The notes beneath the pieces were generated by a model. The model did not search any database. It worked only from the letters and a program-made list of their open reading frames with translations, and was not told where the DNA came from. The translations under genes were made by a program, and so were the position numbers. From contig CASFQA010000001.1 of assembly GCA_949296775.1 (NCBI GenBank), positions 62,001 through 126,000 on the forward strand: a DNA stretch of 64,000 bases, read 5' to 3'. This DNA comes from an uncultured bacterium (GTDB taxonomy: Bacteria > Bacillota_I > Bacilli_A > RFN20 > CAG-826). Shown in pieces: positions 260-8,078 of the stretch. Within the stretch, counting starts at the first letter, position 1, and each line of letters begins with the position of its first letter.

Positions 260-1213
260 ATGATAAACCCACGGAAAGTCGTCGTTATCGGCGATGGGGC
301 GGTCGGTTCCTCGATCGCCTTCACTTTAGCCAACGGCCACGCGGTCAACGAGATCGTCATCGTCGACGTCAACAAGGATAAAGCCGAGGGCGATGTCCTC
401 GATATCGCCGACGGCATGAGCTTCCTCTCGGTCCCCAAGCTCATCAAGGCCGGGGGATATGAGGACGCCAAAGACGCCCACATAATCATCATCACCGCCG
501 GGGCGGCCCAAAAACCGGGCGAGACCAGATTGGATCTGCTCCATAAAAACGCCGCCATCATGACCTCGATCGTCGAGAGTCTAAAACCCCATCTTGATCC
601 CGAGGCCATCGTCATCGTCGTCTCCAATCCCTGCGACGTTTTGTCTTACCTCGCTTATAAGAAGCTCGGGCTGCCCTCTTCCCAAGTATTTGGGTCCGGC
701 ACTGTCTTGGATACCTCAAGGCTTAAAACCGCCATCTCCGAGGATACCGGGATCGACCCCCGAAACGTCCACACCTTCGTAGTCGGGGAGCATGGCGATT
801 CCGAGGTCGCCGTCTGGAGCGCAACCTCGATCGGCGGCCTTTCGATCCTTGATTACTCGACCCAATGCCCGGAATGCAATCTTTCCCATTTGGATGAACT
901 CCACGATAAAGTCCGGGATGCCGCTTATCAGATAATCGCCAAGAAAGGCGCGACCAATTACGCGGTGGCTTTGGCCGTCTCGCGGATCGTCTCAGCCGTC
1001 TTGAACGACGAGAACAGCGTCCTCACCGTCTCCACCTATATCGAAAGCGAGTTCGGCGGGGCCTTATCCGATATCTATCTCTCCCTTCCCTGCGTCGTCG
1101 GCTCGAAAGGGGTCAAGTCGATCCTCCATCCTTCCTATTCCAAGAAGGAACAGCTGGCCATCGTCGATTCCGGCAGCCAGCTTAAGGAAAAGATCGCCGA
1201 GCTCGGATTGTAA
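260..1213 (+). CDS. ldh: L-lactate dehydrogenase
   Basis: This 317-residue NAD-dependent L-lactate dehydrogenase reduces pyruvate to lactate in the cytoplasm and regenerates NAD+ in fermentation. The N-terminal Rossmann motif is GDGAVGSS (11-18). The substrate loop AAQKPGETR carries Gln84, which is diagnostic for lactate rather than malate dehydrogenase, and Arg90. SNP at 122-124, Asp151/Arg154 and the catalytic His178 in GEHGDSE are all present. Length matches the family. The start follows an AGGAGG ribosome site at about 243. It is monocistronic, with terminators on both sides. Confidence 0.97.
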   Translation: MINPRKVVVIGDGAVGSSIAFTLANGHAVNEIVIVDVNKDKAEGDVLDIADGMSFLSVPKLIKAGGYEDAKDAHIIIITAGAAQKPGETRLDLLHKNAAIMTSIVESLKPHLDPEAIVIVVSNPCDVLSYLAYKKLGLPSSQVFGSGTVLDTSRLKTAISEDTGIDPRNVHTFVVGEHGDSEVAVWSATSIGGLSILDYSTQCPECNLSHLDELHDKVRDAAYQIIAKKGATNYAVALAVSRIVSAVLNDENSVLTVSTYIESEFGGALSDIYLSLPCVVGSKGVKSILHPSYSKKEQLAIVDSGSQLKEKIAELGL

Positions 1214-1245
1214 AATAGCGTCATCCCCTCTTTTAGCCTTTAATC

Positions 1246-1278
1246 GCCGATCGGCCCGATGCCGTCGGCTTTTCTTTT
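1246..1278 (+). terminator. Intrinsic terminator of ldh
   Basis: GCCGA (1246-1250) pairs with TCGGC (1265-1269) and is followed by TTTTCTTTT. The same terminator is duplicated at 4753 as part of the cassette repeat, so each surface-protein promoter is insulated from upstream transcription. Confidence 0.7.
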
Positions 1279-1321
1279 CCTTAATCGGGTTGCCGCCCGG
1301 TAAAAAGGGACAAACCTCAAC

Positions 1322-1350
1322 TTGATTCTCTCTCTCTCTCTCTCTATGAT
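1322..1350 (+). promoter_or_regulatory. Candidate phase-variable promoter, 17-bp (CT)n spacer
   Basis: A -35 TTGATT (1322-1327) and -10 TATGAT (1345-1350) are separated by exactly 17 bp made only of CT repeats (1328-1344). The transcript would start near 1357 and give a leader of about 125 nt. Slippage in the tract would change promoter spacing in 2-bp steps. The paralog at 4829 has 15 bp. Confidence 0.75.
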
Positions 1351-1479
1351 GAGTGGCGAACCGATGGGAAAGGCCAGGGAAAAGTCCGCTCGATCGTCAA
1401 GATGAGGGGGTTTTTCGCCATTTTTTCCCCAAAGGGTTCGACAATGGCGCGTTATTTAGAACGCGCGAAAGGAAAGGGA

Positions 1480-3195
1480 ATGTCTATGAAGAGAGCATCA
1501 TCTCGTCTGCTCCTCGGGCTCCTCGGCGTCGCCACGTCCGCCGGGCTGGTCCTTGAGGGGGCGGCGGAGGTAAACGCGGCCGAAGCGGTAGAGAAACTAT
1601 CAGCCACTTTTTCGTCTGACGAAGTTGTTACCAGCGCCGGCTACAGTAAATATGAAAACGATGACTGGGGCATTACTTTCGGCGGAAACAACAAATCAAT
1701 CGGAACAAATTCTGGTAACCGCAGCAAATGTGTTTTGACTGGCGATAACGCGAAATTTGCAGTCTCTCCAATTACTTCCAGTATGACCGCGACCGCCTTC
1801 TATTCGAAAGCGCCGCTTTCGTCAATTTCCAAGGTAACAATGAGCTACGGCGGCGGAAGTAACGCCAATCGTGCCCACTCTTATCTTCTTTCATCAACCG
1901 ATGGAGATAAATATTCATTGGTCGATATAAACGGAGCCTTATCCCAAGGTTCGAATATCAATTCAACAAATACTGAGTACTCATTTGAATTTGATTCCCT
2001 TGATGCTTACTTTGCCGTGGTTGTGGTTGATTCCGGAAACTCCGGCAACTTCCGTTTAGACAACTTTACCGCGGATTTCTATTCCTACGAATCGGCTCCA
2101 GAAGATTTGAAGGTGACTTCTATTGAATTAGCTGCTGGCGAGGATACCACCAATGCTTATCTGGGCATTCCCTATTCGGCTAAAGTCAGGGATTTCAGCG
2201 TTACGTTGAACTATACTTCCGAAACCAATCCGGCTTTCAATTATTCTGAAAACGTCGAACCTTACGACGAGAGATTGACCTGGTCTACCGTTGATACTTC
2301 GGAAAAGGGGCCGGAATACTTAAGCGTTTCCGTTGGCGATGTCGATTCCAATGCTTTGGACATCGAAGTTGTTGACGCTCCGGTCGGGAGTAAGCATATG
2401 TTTGGCGAAAGTGAAGCCTTCCTTGGCTGGAATGCTTCTTATGCCGCTCACACACTCAACTACCCTGGTTTAAAGGTTGAATTTGAATCCGCCAACAAAC
2501 AGCAAAAATCCGAGACGGTCGTTATAACTGATATGCCAGTAACTAAAGGAGCTAAGGTTACGATCGTTAGTTTTGCTGGGCCTTTATCATTTGCAGAAGT
2601 CGGACTAAAACAATGGGCAACAAAAGAGCAGAATGCCACAATCTCTGTTGGCGCAGATATTGGTCATTTGGAAGAGGTTTCGGATATTGCTGTGCAAGGA
2701 ACTACCAGCATATCCGCGACCGGCGCTTTTGAAGTTGCCCAAATTACTTTCAGCAGCCAGTCGAACCAGGTTGGCATTGCCTATGCTGACGTTAAGTTCG
2801 CCTATGAACAAACCCCAGTCGATCCGAACGTTGTCAAGGTTCAAGAATTCGTCGATACCTACATGCATCTTGATGACTATAACGCCAACGAGGGCAAGTG
2901 CTTAGGGGCCGATGGCTATTACGTCAAGGCCCGGACCGCTTTGATCGCGCTTGGCGAAGAATGCATCGAGCTCTTCAAGACGGCCGAACAGTTTGCCGCT
3001 GCCAAGGCGCGCTACGAGAACTGGGCCAAGTTCAACGGCGATGCCAATCCCTATAGTGGAACCTTCACCGCTTCGGCGGCCTCCCGCATCAATAACGACG
3101 ACCATGCCGAGTACTGGATCGTCGGCGGCATCTCCCTCGCCGCCATCGGCGTGGCCGCCGCCATGTTCTTCCTCCGCAAGAAGAAAGAGGCCTAA
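1480..3195 (+). CDS. Secreted, C-terminally membrane-anchored surface protein, paralog A
   Basis: About 571 residues. The N-terminus MSMKRASSRLLLG continues into a hydrophobic segment ending near VNA, a typical signal peptide. ATG 1480 or the in-frame ATG 1486 fits the GGAAAGGG site at 1471-1478. An upstream ATG at 1402 lies in the leader and is not supported, because the matching leader of paralog B is frame-shifted. The middle is beta-rich and Ser/Thr/Asn-rich. It is followed by a helical domain of about 95 residues (FVDTYMH, then LFKTAEQF and YENWAKFNGD). The C-terminus is NNDDHAEYW, one membrane helix and RKKKEA. There is no LPXTG motif. Function is unknown; it is probably an adhesin or exposed antigen. 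Expression is likely controlled by the (CT)n promoter. Confidence 0.85.
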   Translation: MSMKRASSRLLLGLLGVATSAGLVLEGAAEVNAAEAVEKLSATFSSDEVVTSAGYSKYENDDWGITFGGNNKSIGTNSGNRSKCVLTGDNAKFAVSPITSSMTATAFYSKAPLSSISKVTMSYGGGSNANRAHSYLLSSTDGDKYSLVDINGALSQGSNINSTNTEYSFEFDSLDAYFAVVVVDSGNSGNFRLDNFTADFYSYESAPEDLKVTSIELAAGEDTTNAYLGIPYSAKVRDFSVTLNYTSETNPAFNYSENVEPYDERLTWSTVDTSEKGPEYLSVSVGDVDSNALDIEVVDAPVGSKHMFGESEAFLGWNASYAAHTLNYPGLKVEFESANKQQKSETVVITDMPVTKGAKVTIVSFAGPLSFAEVGLKQWATKEQNATISVGADIGHLEEVSDIAVQGTTSISATGAFEVAQITFSSQSNQVGIAYADVKFAYEQTPVDPNVVKVQEFVDTYMHLDDYNANEGKCLGADGYYVKARTALIALGEECIELFKTAEQFAAAKARYENWAKFNGDANPYSGTFTASAASRINNDDHAEYWIVGGISLAAIGVAAAMFFLRKKKEA

Positions 3196-3246
3196 CACTC
3201 TCTTCTTGATATAGCCCTCCGCCTTCCCTTAGGGCGATGGGGCAAA
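3088..3246. repeat. 3' cassette repeat, copy 1
   Basis: Nearly identical to 6661-6818. It encodes the shared C-terminal anchor and continues about 50 bp past the stop codon. With the 5' repeat it brackets a divergent central region of the surface gene. Confidence 0.9.
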
Positions 3247-3272
3247 GGTCATCTTAACCGGGTGGCCTTTTA
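3245..3272 (+). terminator. Terminator of surface protein A
   Basis: A 9-bp stem with G-T pairs (3245-3253 with 3261-3269) and a short T run. Confidence 0.5.
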
Positions 3273-3289
3273 GTTTGCTTGATTCAGAA

Positions 3290-3380
3290 AGTTTTTACGC
3301 TACAGCGTCAAAACTCTACTTCTTTCTAAAGTTTTTACGCTCCAGCGTTAAAAGTGTTGAATTTTAATAAGTTCTTACGT
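3290..3380 (+). promoter_or_regulatory. Three phased operator-like sites upstream of the DUF4143 ATPase
   Basis: AGTTTTTACGCT begins at 3290 and again at 3330; each is followed by its inverted arm AGCGT(c/t)AAAA. A third, degenerate half-site AGTTCTTACGTA begins at 3370. The 40-bp period puts all sites on one helix face. They end 25 bp before the start codon at 3405. Confidence 0.6.
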
Positions 3381-3404
3381 AAATTATGATCAAAGGACCA
3401 GGTC

Positions 3405-4610
3405 ATGATATATCGCACCGAATACATGGAGCGTCTGAAAGCGTTCAAAGATCAGAAGATCATAAAAGTCGTAACGGGTTTGCGCCGTTCGGGGAAATCG
3501 ACATTGTTGGAGATGTTCAAGGACGAATTGCTGAAAGAGGGGGTTCGGACCGAGCAAATCCAGTATATCAACTTCGAGCTCATGAAATATGACTCCATTC
3601 GGGATTACCACCAACTATACGAATTGGTGGTCAAAAAGGCGTTGCCCGATGAGAAAAACTATCTTTTCTTTGACGAGATCCAGCAAGTAAAAGGCTGGGA
3701 GAAAGCCATCAATTCCCTTTCTTTGGAATACGATGCCGATATTTACGTCACTGGATCCAACGCTTATCTATTGTCTTCGGAATTAGCCACTTTGATCGCC
3801 GGCCGATACGTCGAGATTAAAATGCTGCCCTTGTCGTTTAAAGAATATTACGGATATTATGCCGATTCCGGCAAAACCGTTCAGGATGTCTTCAATCGGT
3901 ATTTGAAATATGGCGGGCTGCCGCAGCTACTGGCTTTTCCGGATGACGAGGCCGCGATCAATTCGTTTTTGTCGAGCATCTACGATACCGTCATCCTCAA
4001 AGACGTGCTTGCCCGCAACAACTTCAAGGACATCGATTTGCTCAAGCGGGTTTTCGCGTTTGTTTGTGGCAACGTCGGCAGCATCCTCTCCTCCAATCGA
4101 ATCGCCACATACATTGCCAACGAGGCTAAACTTGACCGTTCTTTCCGTCCGGCCACCGTCGGCAATATCCTTGAGATGCTAGAAAACGCCTTCATTGTCT
4201 ATCGGGCAAACCGTTATGACGTCAAGGGCAAAGAAGTCTTGAAGTCGCTTGAGAAGTATTATGTCGTCGATACTGGGCTTAAAAACACCATCGTCGGTTA
4301 TGGATTGGATAATTACGGTCATTCCATCGAGAACATCGTCTATTTGGAGTTGATACGCCGGGGGTATGAAGTATATGTGGGGAAAAACGAAACCAAGGAG
4401 ATAGATTTCGTCGCAGTTAGCAAAGACGAAAAACTATACATTCAGGTCACTCAATCGCTGCTTGACGAATCAACTAGAGAACGGGAACTCGCCCCTTTTC
4501 AGAACACAAACGATTTTTACCAGAAAATCGTCATTACTATGGATCAAAATTACGTTACCAATGCGAACGGAATCAAAATCGTCAACCTGATTGATTTCTT
4601 GCTATCTTAA
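3405..4610 (+). CDS. AAA_14/DUF4143 family ATPase
   Basis: 401-residue P-loop ATPase. Walker A is GLRRSGKS (25-32), Walker B is YLFFDE (86-91), a sensor-like TGSNA follows at 117 and an arginine-finger-like GRY at 133. The DUF4143 region covers roughly 200-330. The C-terminal ETKEIDFVAV...YIQVTQ resembles a PD-(D/E)XK fold. The family is common in accessory regions and its cellular role is not established. It lies between the two surface-protein cassettes and is preceded by three phased dyads that could be its operator. A decayed relative is at 40815-41358. The start follows AAAGGA with 7-nt spacing. Confidence 0.9.
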   Translation: MIYRTEYMERLKAFKDQKIIKVVTGLRRSGKSTLLEMFKDELLKEGVRTEQIQYINFELMKYDSIRDYHQLYELVVKKALPDEKNYLFFDEIQQVKGWEKAINSLSLEYDADIYVTGSNAYLLSSELATLIAGRYVEIKMLPLSFKEYYGYYADSGKTVQDVFNRYLKYGGLPQLLAFPDDEAAINSFLSSIYDTVILKDVLARNNFKDIDLLKRVFAFVCGNVGSILSSNRIATYIANEAKLDRSFRPATVGNILEMLENAFIVYRANRYDVKGKEVLKSLEKYYVVDTGLKNTIVGYGLDNYGHSIENIVYLELIRRGYEVYVGKNETKEIDFVAVSKDEKLYIQVTQSLLDESTRERELAPFQNTNDFYQKIVITMDQNYVTNANGIKIVNLIDFLLS

Positions 4611-4752
4611 TTTTCGTCGTCTTGTTTTGGCCGCCTTGCAATTCCTAACAAACGGTTGGCTCTGGACTGACCGGAACTTTTCGTGTTGGATGCAGATAAG
4701 CTTTAACGACGGGATTTGTAAAATCGCGCGCTTCTTCATTTTTGATTAGTTT

Positions 4753-4786
4753 GCCGATTGGCCCGATGCCGTCGGCTTTTCTTTTC
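4753..4786 (+). terminator. Terminator within the second cassette repeat
   Basis: GCCGA (4753-4757) and TCGGC (4772-4776) followed by TTTTCTTTT. It is a duplicate of the ldh terminator and would end ATPase transcription. Confidence 0.7.
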
Positions 4787-4828
4787 CTTAATCGGATTGC
4801 CGCCCGGTAAAAAGGGACCAACCTCAAC

Positions 4829-4855
4829 TTGATTCTCTCTCTCTCTCTCTATGAT
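4829..4855 (+). promoter_or_regulatory. Candidate phase-variable promoter, 15-bp (CT)n spacer
   Basis: The same TTGATT (4829-4834) and TATGAT (4850-4855) boxes as at 1322, but the CT spacer is only 15 bp (4835-4849). That is two bases below the sigma-70 optimum, so this copy is predicted to be weak or off in the sequenced cell. Confidence 0.75.
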
Positions 4856-4983
4856 GAGTGGCGAACCGATGGGAAAGGCCAGGGAAAAGTCCGCTCGATC
4901 GTCAAGATGAGGGGGATTTTTCGCTCTTTTTCCCAAAGGGTTCGACAATGGCGCGTTATGTAGAACGCGCGAAAGGAAAGGGA

Positions 4984-6768
4984 ATGTCTATGAAGAGAGC
5001 ATCATCTCGTCTGCTCCTCGGGCTCCTCGGCGTCGCCACGTCCGCCGGGCTGGTCCTTGAGGCCGTGGTCGACAGCGTGGCGAAGGGGGCGGCGGAAGTA
5101 AACGCGGCGGTCGGGGATGTTTTGGCTAAATTGCCCACTAGTCTTGGTAAGGGTTATGGTCCGCATGAAAACCTTACGAACGGCGGAATTGGTACCTGGT
5201 CTATTTCGTTTGGGCAAGGAACTTATTTCGGAACTAACAATAAAGAAAGTAACCCCACCAAAATTAAACTTGGTGATTTCATCAGCGTTGATGGCGTTTC
5301 TTCAACCGATCTCTATAAAGCCGTCGCGGTTTGCGAGACTCCTATTACCAATGCCGGAAAGTTAACTTTTTCCACTTCAGAATTGTCTTATGCGAACAAT
5401 GCGGAAATCACTTATTCCGTTATTTCGTCTGCTGCCCCTCGCAATACCGATGGATCGGTTTTCGAAATTGTTGCTTCAAAGACTTTGAACGGTTTGGTTA
5501 CTTCCTTTGAGATTGAATTCGACACAATCCGGGAGCCAGCTTATTTAGGGCTTTTGGTTGAATGCGATGATACTTATTTCCGATATAACAGCGTCGAATT
5601 ATCGATTTTGGAAGGCTCGACCATTGTTAGGCCGGCCGACGTTATCCCGGTCAGTGTTTCTTTAGAGCAAATCGCGGGTGGCAGTGATGTTTACGAAGGC
5701 TCTGACATTTTTAAGGAAAACTATAGCGTTTCCGTCACTTATGGGGGATCGACTATTAATCCTGAGTATTCAGAGACCGTCGCCATTGATAGCGATGATT
5801 CGCGGCTGACTTGGAATATCGACACCTCTTCCACGGGCGAAAAACCCTTAACTGTGACCTTTACCGAGGGAGATGCTACGGTTACCTCCGACCCATTGAC
5901 TATTAATGTTTTGCCTGATGCTTTTGCTGGTTATCATGCCGATGTTTTGACCGCGGATAGCCTTGGCTTAACTGGAAGCTACGAAACCAAAGACGTTACT
6001 CTTCCGTCTGGCGTTACCTATGTTTATAACGCTATGAAGGGGCAAGGTGCTATTCAGCTAAACGATTCGAGCAAAAGAGGCATTGTTGTCACTGATTCAA
6101 TCGGGACTGCCGATATGATTGAAATCACATTTAACGCTGAAACCGACGAGTCCAGAGTTATCGATATTTACGCCAGTCACAATCAATTCACCTCTCCTGC
6201 AGACCTTTACGAGACTGGCGTTTCGCCAATTGCTTCAATTGCTTATGCTGATGGTCAGGTCGGAACCCTTGATATTTCGGCCTTAGAAGGCGCTCCTTAC
6301 GAATACATCGGAATCCGTTCAAATGATGGTGCTGTCTACCTCGATCAAATCCGCATCGGCTACACCGAAGCGGCCACTCCGACCGACGCTGAAGTCGTGG
6401 CTAACTTCGTCGCGGATTATATGCACATGACTGATTACGATGCCGATAAGATCGGCGTTGGAACCGGCGCTTGCCTTGGCGAAGGCGGATATTACCAGGT
6501 GGCGATGGCCGCTTTCATGGAATTGACCCCTGAACAGCAAGAACTCTTCAAGACCAGCGAAGAATTCGCCGATGCCCGCAAGCGTTACGAGACTTGGGCC
6601 CGCATAAATGGGGACGAAACACCGTATGACGGTTCGTTCAATCCATCCTCTGCCGCCCGCATCAATAACGACGACCATGCCGAGTACTGGATCGTCGGCG
6701 GCATCTCCCTCGCCGCCATCGGCGTGGCTGCCGCCATGTTCTTCCTCCGCAAGAAGAAAGAGGCCTAA
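4984..6768 (+). CDS. Secreted, C-terminally membrane-anchored surface protein, paralog B
   Basis: About 594 residues, starting at ATG 4984 (or 4990) after GGAAAGGG as in paralog A. The signal peptide is identical for the first 24 or so residues. An eight-residue insertion (AVVDSVAK-like) then precedes GAAEVNA. The central beta-rich part has diverged strongly from paralog A. The helical domain (FVADYMHM, LFKTSEEF, YETWARING) and the anchor NNDDHAEYW, membrane helix and RKKKEA are shared. Conserved ends around a variable middle fit antigenic diversification by recombination. Function is unknown. The promoter carries the shorter CT tract. Confidence 0.85.
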   Translation: MSMKRASSRLLLGLLGVATSAGLVLEAVVDSVAKGAAEVNAAVGDVLAKLPTSLGKGYGPHENLTNGGIGTWSISFGQGTYFGTNNKESNPTKIKLGDFISVDGVSSTDLYKAVAVCETPITNAGKLTFSTSELSYANNAEITYSVISSAAPRNTDGSVFEIVASKTLNGLVTSFEIEFDTIREPAYLGLLVECDDTYFRYNSVELSILEGSTIVRPADVIPVSVSLEQIAGGSDVYEGSDIFKENYSVSVTYGGSTINPEYSETVAIDSDDSRLTWNIDTSSTGEKPLTVTFTEGDATVTSDPLTINVLPDAFAGYHADVLTADSLGLTGSYETKDVTLPSGVTYVYNAMKGQGAIQLNDSSKRGIVVTDSIGTADMIEITFNAETDESRVIDIYASHNQFTSPADLYETGVSPIASIAYADGQVGTLDISALEGAPYEYIGIRSNDGAVYLDQIRIGYTEAATPTDAEVVANFVADYMHMTDYDADKIGVGTGACLGEGGYYQVAMAAFMELTPEQQELFKTSEEFADARKRYETWARINGDETPYDGSFNPSSAARINNDDHAEYWIVGGISLAAIGVAAAMFFLRKKKEA

Positions 6769-6818
6769 CACTCTCTTCTTGATATAGCCCTCCGCCTTCC
6801 CTTAGGGCAATGGGGCAA
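6661..6818. repeat. 3' cassette repeat, copy 2
   Basis: Near-identical to 3088-3246; encodes the shared anchor and the start of the downstream region. Confidence 0.9.
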
Positions 6819-6819
6819 C

Positions 6820-6845
6820 GGGTCGCCTTCGGGCGGCCCTTTTCC
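6820..6845 (+). terminator. Terminator of surface protein B
   Basis: GGGTCGCC (6820-6827), loop TTCG, GGCGGCCC (6832-6839), then a T-rich tail. Confidence 0.8.
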
Positions 6846-6938
6846 TTAATGGGGCTAGCTAAGGGAAAAAGAAAAGCCGATTTGAGTTTGTCTAGACTTT
6901 CGCCATCGTTCTAATTGGGCAGATCTTCCTTTTGATAG

Positions 6939-8078
6939 CTAGCGCGAATTCCCGATCGACCAATCGAGCAACGCTTTGGCGTATTTTTCGTGGTAAGGGG
7001 CCAATAGCTCGTGCTTGTATTCGCGGATGTTGGCGGCCCCGGTGAGCGGGCTTTCGGGCGGATCGAAGGTCAGGTTGTCCATCAATTCGGATATGCCTTC
7101 GTCGCCGAGGTAGGTGAAGTAGGGCTGGTCCAGCTTATCGGCAGTCCAATAGGTATCGGTGAGCTTCCAACTCGATTCATCGATCGCGTCATTGTAGAAG
7201 ACCCCGGCCCCATCGATGTCGCCTTGGGTGTCGTAATGGAAGATGGTCGGGACGAACCCTTCCTTATAGCCGGGCTCCTCGATATTAGAGGCGGAAAGGC
7301 CGTAATCCGCCTTGAACTTAATCCATTGCTCGTAGGCCGCCTTTTCCTCTTCGCTCGCGTCGACATCGTCTTTCCCGGCGACCCCATTTAGCAGGCGAAC
7401 CCCTTCTTGGGCGGTGTCGAGGACATAGAGATAGTCGCTATCCCGGTTGTCGATGAAGTATTGCTGGAGGAAGTGGGTCTCAAGATAGCCGCAGTCGGGG
7501 CAGCCGGTTTGGGTGAATAGAAGAGTGAATTCCTGCTTGGCGGTCAGCTTCATATCGAATATGGCCTTATCGACGTAAATCATCTTCGGGTAGTTGATCC
7601 GCGCGTCCATCCATTCGGCGAATGCTTGCCTTGAGGTCACCCAATCCGATTCCTGGTCGACGTTATCGTGCTGATAGGATAGCTCCCCTTCGTCGAAGAT
7701 GGCGAGGGTCTCGTGGTTTACGACCAACTCCAGCCCATAGTCCTCATCCTCATCGACGATGTCGTTATAGTCGATCCAATATAGGAGGAGGTTATGCTGC
7801 TTAAGGTAGGGGACTAAGACGTCGTCATGCCAATCGGCGTAGCAAGAGCAGCCGATCCCCCCGTCATTATGGACCATAAGGAGGAACGATTGCTTTTCCA
7901 AGGCCATCGAACGGAGGGTGGGATAGTCGATCTGCTTCATATGGCTGGTCCCTTGGATCTCCTCCTCCATCCCGATTAAGGTCCCATAGGCCAAATCGAC
8001 CTTCTTAAACTCGTCGATCGGCCCGCAGGCGCCTAGGGGGAAGAAGAGGAACGGAAACAAGAAAGCAGCCTTTTTCAT
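6939..8078 (-). CDS. Lipoprotein with two thioredoxin-like domains
   Basis: 379-residue lipoprotein with signal peptide and lipobox LGAC (Cys18). There are two thioredoxin-like cysteine sites. The first is GIGCSCY (Cys77 and Cys79) in an N-terminal domain. The second is TGCPDC (Cys193 and Cys196), a CxxC after a predicted strand FTLLFTQ, as in thioredoxin folds. It probably acts in thiol-disulfide exchange at the outer face of the membrane; substrate unknown. No Shine-Dalgarno is visible. An extended -10 (TGCTAAGAT, box at 8093-8088) ends exactly 9 nt before the ATG, suggesting a leaderless or near-leaderless transcript. Confidence 0.85.
   Translation of the reverse strand: MKKAAFLFPFLFFPLGACGPIDEFKKVDLAYGTLIGMEEEIQGTSHMKQIDYPTLRSMALEKQSFLLMVHNDGGIGCSCYADWHDDVLVPYLKQHNLLLYWIDYNDIVDEDEDYGLELVVNHETLAIFDEGELSYQHDNVDQESDWVTSRQAFAEWMDARINYPKMIYVDKAIFDMKLTAKQEFTLLFTQTGCPDCGYLETHFLQQYFIDNRDSDYLYVLDTAQEGVRLLNGVAGKDDVDASEEEKAAYEQWIKFKADYGLSASNIEEPGYKEGFVPTIFHYDTQGDIDGAGVFYNDAIDESSWKLTDTYWTADKLDQPYFTYLGDEGISELMDNLTFDPPESPLTGAANIREYKHELLAPYHEKYAKALLDWSIGNSR

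Follow-up and report, generated by a model that had tools for sequence, protein, structure and literature searches.

Tandem-repeat promoter spacers as candidate phase-variation switches of surface-protein genes across an uncultured family of gut Bacillota

Two paralogous surface-protein genes, here called copies A and B, are preceded by promoters in which the -35 and -10 boxes are separated only by a CT repeat, and the same design recurs across the bacterial family to which this genome belongs. Comparison with related genomes makes it very probable that these promoters are a class-wide form of slipped-strand phase variation acting through promoter spacing, of the kind known from hif and porA, with a CIRCE-like operator arm added in relatives. 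Coordinates refer to the window, the whole stretch of 64,000 nucleotides that was analysed, and its features are collected in Table 1.

Results

Two CT-spaced promoters one repeat unit apart

In both copies the boxes TTGATT and TATGAT enclose nothing but CT repeats, CTCTCTCTCTCTCTCTC in copy A (17 bp, (CT)8C) and CTCTCTCTCTCTCTC in copy B (15 bp, (CT)7C), letter for letter as the initial annotation had described them. All the way from the terminator-like hairpin on the upstream side to the signal peptide the two regions are nearly the same, with flanks 97% identical, and a pairwise comparison of both regions confirmed the further statement that the tracts differ by exactly one CT unit. The tracts are modest in size (8-9 units). 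CT x7 was absent from all 100 dinucleotide-shuffled versions of the window, which speaks against chance. Pattern searches of the whole genome (1.52 Mb) located CT runs of at least 12 at three places, all of them promoter contexts; the third is a promoter-like TTGATT-CTCTCC(CT)n-TACAAT with a spacer of 17, ahead of a lipoprotein gene.

Generic promoter and terminator scans of the stretch containing A and B returned no more sites than shuffled sequence, so that the promoter call rests on comparative evidence rather than on a consensus match. The upstream terminators that had been proposed to insulate each promoter stood in part: hairpins with T-rich tails are present at both copies (1251-1268 and 4763-4775 without the tail), but the terminator scan showed no excess. 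A search of positions 1200-7000 against Rfam gave no match, and the CT promoter was not found in viral contigs.

Table 1. Positions of the promoter, leader and coding features in the window.
Feature	Position	Strand	Basis
Intrinsic-terminator-like hairpin with T-rich tail, end of ldh unit, 5' of switch A	1251..1278	+	repeated in copy B
-35 box TTGATT, copy A	1322..1327	+	sequence
(CT)n spacer, copy A, 17 bp	1328..1344	+	sequence, shuffles, genome pattern search
-10 box TATGAT, copy A (predicted transcription start near 1357)	1345..1350	+	sequence, relatives
Structured leader stem-loop, copy A	1357..1440	+	fold against shuffles; relatives
Pre-Shine-Dalgarno hairpin GCGCGTT-ATTTAG-AACGCGC, copy A	1447..1466	+	relatives
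Surface protein A, 569 aa: signal peptide, beta-rich domains, C-terminal membrane helix, FFLRKKKEA tail	1486..3195	+	sequence, structure model
AAA_14/DUF4143 ATPase gene between the cassettes; a neighbour of the switches	3405..4610	+	
Terminator-like hairpin with T-rich tail, 5' of switch B	4763..4785	+	A/B comparison
-35 box TTGATT, copy B	4829..4834	+	sequence
(CT)n spacer, copy B, 15 bp	4835..4849	+	sequence, A/B comparison
-10 box TATGAT, copy B	4850..4855	+	sequence
Structured leader stem-loop, copy B	4862..4944	+	fold against shuffles
Pre-Shine-Dalgarno hairpin GCGCGTT-ATGTAG-AACGCGC, copy B	4951..4970	+	sequence
Surface protein B, 592 aa, paralogue of A	4990..6768	+	sequence comparison

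A class of repeat-spaced promoters, often joined to a CIRCE-like arm

Related genomes were searched with one genome per species (220-279 genomes), and -10 boxes were assigned by best match. A pattern search for TTGANT-CT-TANNNT found the layout in 34 of 224 genomes of the family, spread over 10 of 35 genera, while the reversed control gave none; the same CT promoter is present in a public contig of Candidatus Alloenteromonas pullistercoris.

The HrcA/CIRCE heat-shock operator is the palindrome GCACTC-N9-(A/G)AGTGC. The repeat tract follows TTAGCACTC-N9-(A/G)AGTGCTTGA in the majority of the other genera and in a small number of Alloenteromonas-like genomes, and the arms of these CIRCE-bearing relatives are laid out as GCACTC-N9-AGTGCTTGACT. 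Set against the CIRCE operator TTAGCACTC-N9-GAGTGCTAA, the left arm and the N9 spacing match, whereas the outer bases on the right are TTG instead of TAA. At the repeat promoters of most relatives, the -35 box is the right arm of a CIRCE-like palindrome, GCACT-N11-AGTGCTTG (CIRCE-TTG). When this palindrome was searched for by itself, with no repeat required, 37 of the order's 279 genomes yielded 68 sites, all within the family, and the reversed control yielded none. At 63 of the 68 sites the -35/-10 spacer consists of a tandem repeat, 10 bp or longer, with CT (27), CTT (27), AAG (6), CCCT (2) and CCT (1) as units; the other five are mostly interrupted versions of such repeats, and one further site has AC repeats after AGTGCTTT. 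By comparison, only 3 of 107 classical CIRCE sites with AGTGCTAA at the loci examined have even a 10-bp repeat nearby.

An HrcA protein is encoded in the window's own genome (313 bits, above the cut-off), and several classical CIRCE sites of relatives precede Hsp20-like genes. A layer of HrcA control is probable at the repeat promoters of relatives. The own genome holds no GCACT-N11-AGTGCTT site and the sequence 5' of the window copies differs, so we do not claim HrcA control for copies A and B. Between sibling species, the 9-bp centre of the CIRCE-like palindrome is inverted in L291 relative to L290 and L292 (TACACGTGC against GCACGTGTA), as if the loop of the palindrome had flipped.

Similar arrangements were seen outside the family. 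In a Spirochaetia MAG, related lipoprotein genes follow two promoters with CT spacers (15 and 17 bp; L150 5956-5982 and, on the minus strand, L155 5260-5288), apparently of independent origin. Sites resembling TTGACT-(CT)n-C-(G/T)TAAAAT occur at seven loci of gastric Helicobacter, several of them preceding the same 'MFIQDLSVEQQQVF' gene. A contig labelled Bacteroidales combines a CIRCE-like arm, a CT spacer and a zinc-ribbon gene (L189 284-312) and is probably a misbinned contig that belongs to the family described here.

Spacer lengths keep to a register that includes 17 bp

The optimal -35/-10 spacing is 17 bp, within an optimum range of 16-18 bp. CT spacers of 13, 15, 17, 19 and 21 bp and CTT spacers of 11, 14, 17 and 20 bp were found. 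With tied -10 boxes resolved to the first one and no tie-break towards 17, both distributions have their mode at 17 bp: 26 of 58 CT spacers (15 bp in 12, 19 bp in 10) and 8 of 25 CTT spacers (14 bp in 7, 20 bp in 6). An odd length was found for 56 of the 58 CT spacers, and all but one of 30 trinucleotide sites keep the register to which 17 belongs; the five AAG sites counted show no peak at 17 of their own. The sites have ancestry in common, so that a nominal p value makes the evidence look stronger than it is, although their junctions differ. Because different units occupy one position, because CT and CTT have their modes at 17 and because the register almost always includes 17, spacer length appears to be what varies.

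Length also changes between close relatives. The initial annotation had suggested comparing tract lengths in related genomes, and near-identical loci were found to differ in length, most sites with flanks at least 90% identical being separated by whole units. In three species whose AAG orthologues are 95-97% identical along some 550 nt, the spacers measure 17, 20 and 14 bp, and a trio of CT orthologues with flanks 92-94% identical has spacers of 19, 13 and 11 bp. Repeat number therefore varies both among paralogues and among sibling species, as at promoters of the hif/porA type, and the unit changes likewise cross the 16-18 bp optimum. At one locus (L119) an assembly gap falls within the CT tract, which would fit a mixture of lengths and proves nothing.

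MutS1 is absent from the genera that carry the repeats

No MutS1 above the cut-off was found in the own genome, where the single weak match covers the C-terminal part only and looks like MutS2. Across the family, MutS1 was detected above the cut-off in 20 of 220 genomes belonging to nine genera, and none of these genera has a CT run of at least 14 or a CIRCE-TTG repeat site (genus-level Fisher p about 0.01, with genera not independent and MAG incompleteness adding noise). The MutS1 association and the spacer register are partly co-inherited and hence not fully independent.

The promoters mostly precede surface-protein genes

Proteins A and B both start with a signal peptide and are 34% identical overall, with a divergent middle and identical ends that comprise the membrane helix and the charged tail. 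The structure model of protein A is beta-rich and of low confidence (pLDDT 63), and Pfam gave no informative match for either protein; proteins of relatives contain Big_2, Big_3 and List_Bact_rpt domains. By a simple rule applied to the N-terminus (signal peptide, lipoprotein or membrane), 72 of 90 ORFs downstream of repeat promoters look secreted, lipoprotein or membrane-bound, against 9 of 27 genes of the window. As at hif and porA, the genes concerned mostly encode surface structures; some look cytosolic.

Among the non-secreted targets of CT promoters, a zinc-ribbon protein (MYC.NCGKK) turns up repeatedly (L068, L073, L074, L080, L118). AAA ATPase genes (AAA_14/DUF4143-like) adjoin repeat-spaced promoters at two loci (L003, L199) besides the one in the window.

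Structured leaders

The leaders of the window copies fold better than their shuffles (z -2.5 for A, -3.9 for B). At the position homologous to the stem-loop of leader A, several relatives have a terminator-like hairpin followed by a U run, clear for example in the CIRCE-less L094, L095 and L103-L105. A clean leader terminator was also considered for the window copies and was dropped, since the hairpin is clear in relatives and not in A or B. Terminator-like hairpins between promoter and gene were noted in CIRCE-less members (the foregoing and L076, L098 and L102) and are rare where the CIRCE-like arm is present; in CIRCE-less members attenuation may take the place of the operator, and the leader hairpins may more generally add attenuation.

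A hairpin just before the Shine-Dalgarno sequence, with an ATATAG-like loop, is shared by the window copies, other CIRCE-less members and the AAG group. Its stem varies while the loop A-T-x-T-A-G is conserved (window, L094, L095, L098, L291, L292), and it is possibly a family-wide leader RNA element.

Discussion

We propose that the CT tracts are variable spacers of sigma70-type promoters at surface-protein genes. Replication slippage would add or drop CT units and so shift the distance between the boxes around the 17-bp optimum, and each gene would flip at random between strong transcription at 17 and weaker transcription at 15 or 19; copy A (17) is predicted to be on and copy B (15) to be weak. 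In most class members the CIRCE-like arm fused to the -35 box would join this random switching to stress-responsive repression by HrcA, whereas the window copies would have lost the arm, or never had it, and carry a structured leader instead. The initial annotation had read the two promoters as phase-variable, and that reading is supported by the predicted layout, the spacer lengths, the unit differences, the surface targets and the missing MutS1 in relatives; slippage around 17 bp gains weight from relatives that share the layout, the register and the unit steps at mostly surface genes. The wider promoter class, the CIRCE-like arm of relatives and the structured leader lay beyond its view. 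On a broader reading, which we favour by a small margin over its negation, the family has a regulon of stress-gated contingency promoters in which an HrcA arm is fused to the -35 box, the spacer is a hypermutable and swappable unit (CT, CTT, AAG, CCT, CCCT, AC) held in the register of 17, and heat-shock signalling and random switching jointly run many variable surface proteins in mismatch-repair-deficient gut commensals.

Three other explanations are each unlikely to account for the promoters. Expression might be decided by the leader, its terminator-like stem and pre-Shine-Dalgarno hairpin acting as an attenuator that promoter spacing would only tune. The good folding of the window leaders and the clear hairpins of several CIRCE-less relatives speak for attenuation and leave it about one chance in ten, but most CIRCE-bearing members keep the repeat spacer despite short or unterminated leaders, and in A and B the hairpin falls short of a clean terminator. 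A shade less likely, the tract might be a fixed polypyrimidine element that sets promoter strength as a binding site, as bent or easily melted DNA or by forming a triplex, with its length changes incidental. Most units (CT, CTT, CCT, CCCT) are indeed pyrimidine on the coding strand; AAG, which is purine on that strand, nevertheless takes the same place at five to six sites and AC does so at one, and these examples weaken the idea. Nearly all sites are moreover perfect repeats, which mere composition would not need, and their lengths keep to the register of 17.

Least likely of all, the repeats could have accumulated neutrally once mismatch repair was lost, HrcA or the leader alone being responsible for regulation. 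The absence of MutS1 from the repeat-bearing genera would fit such an origin. Against it, the repeats gather at one promoter position, where all three CT runs of at least 12 in the own genome lie, and they occur at 63 of 68 CIRCE-TTG sites against 3 of 107 classical CIRCE sites.

Phase variation through promoter spacing would then be a repeated design throughout this family of uncultured commensals, one that uses exchangeable repeat units and probably includes a heat-shock operator. It suggests how the cell surface could be diversified in the gut, gives a specific example of repeat-based switches going together with the loss of mismatch repair, and supplies numerous natural length variants for measuring the effect of spacing on promoter strength.

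Comparison with known systems

To our knowledge, phase variation through the promoter spacer has been described at single genes in a few pathogens. What is new here is that the repeats are joined to a CIRCE-like arm and that their units can be interchanged, in a new lineage; spacer phase variation as such was already known. The repeat promoters share with the HrcA/CIRCE system the GCACTC-N9-(A/G)AGTGC palindrome, an HrcA gene and, in relatives, classical sites ahead of Hsp20-like genes, and they differ in that the right arm of relatives runs into the TTG of the -35 box, that the targets are mainly surface genes and that both window copies are without the arm. Full-text searches of a partial literature collection found nothing that joins HrcA/CIRCE with spacer repeats.

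The initial annotation had pointed to dinucleotide spacer repeats at fimbrial and outer-membrane genes of other bacteria, and spacer repeats are on record, dinucleotide at hifA/hifB and mononucleotide at porA. In Haemophilus influenzae, according to the papers that cite the original work, (TA)9-11 between the -35 and -10 boxes of hifA/hifB sets the spacing (van Ham 1993, cited in PMC2651432 and PMC3899988). The family's promoters resemble these in having a repeat in the same position whose unit number would set the spacing, and in hif the genes encode surface appendages; there, however, the repeat is TA in a divergent promoter of a proteobacterium, whereas here CT, CTT, AAG, CCT and CCCT serve many unidirectional promoters of one Bacillota family and are often fused to a CIRCE-like operator. 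At porA of Neisseria meningitidis, poly-G in the -35/-10 spacer sets transcription of a surface protein (PMC3899988), which is the same link from spacer repeat to transcription level, though with a mononucleotide and at one gene.

Other systems share single elements. The nadA gene of N. meningitidis combines a phase-variable repeat with the signal-responsive repressor NadR (PMC2791445), but its repeat is distal, between operators and outside the core spacer, and NadR is of the MarR type. The pil1 locus of Streptococcus gallolyticus couples repeat-based switching to a leader terminator at a surface gene (PMC3894217), with repeats in a translated leader peptide and not in the promoter. In Mycoplasma gallisepticum, (GAA)n precedes many paralogous vlhA surface lipoprotein genes and varies in number while its flanks stay (PMC6258824); trinucleotide repeats at many paralogous surface genes, differing in number between orthologues, are common to both, but the GAA tract is placed some 40 nt 5' of the start site, where a protein is believed to recognise it, whereas the repeats described here lie inside the spacer and not upstream of the core promoter.
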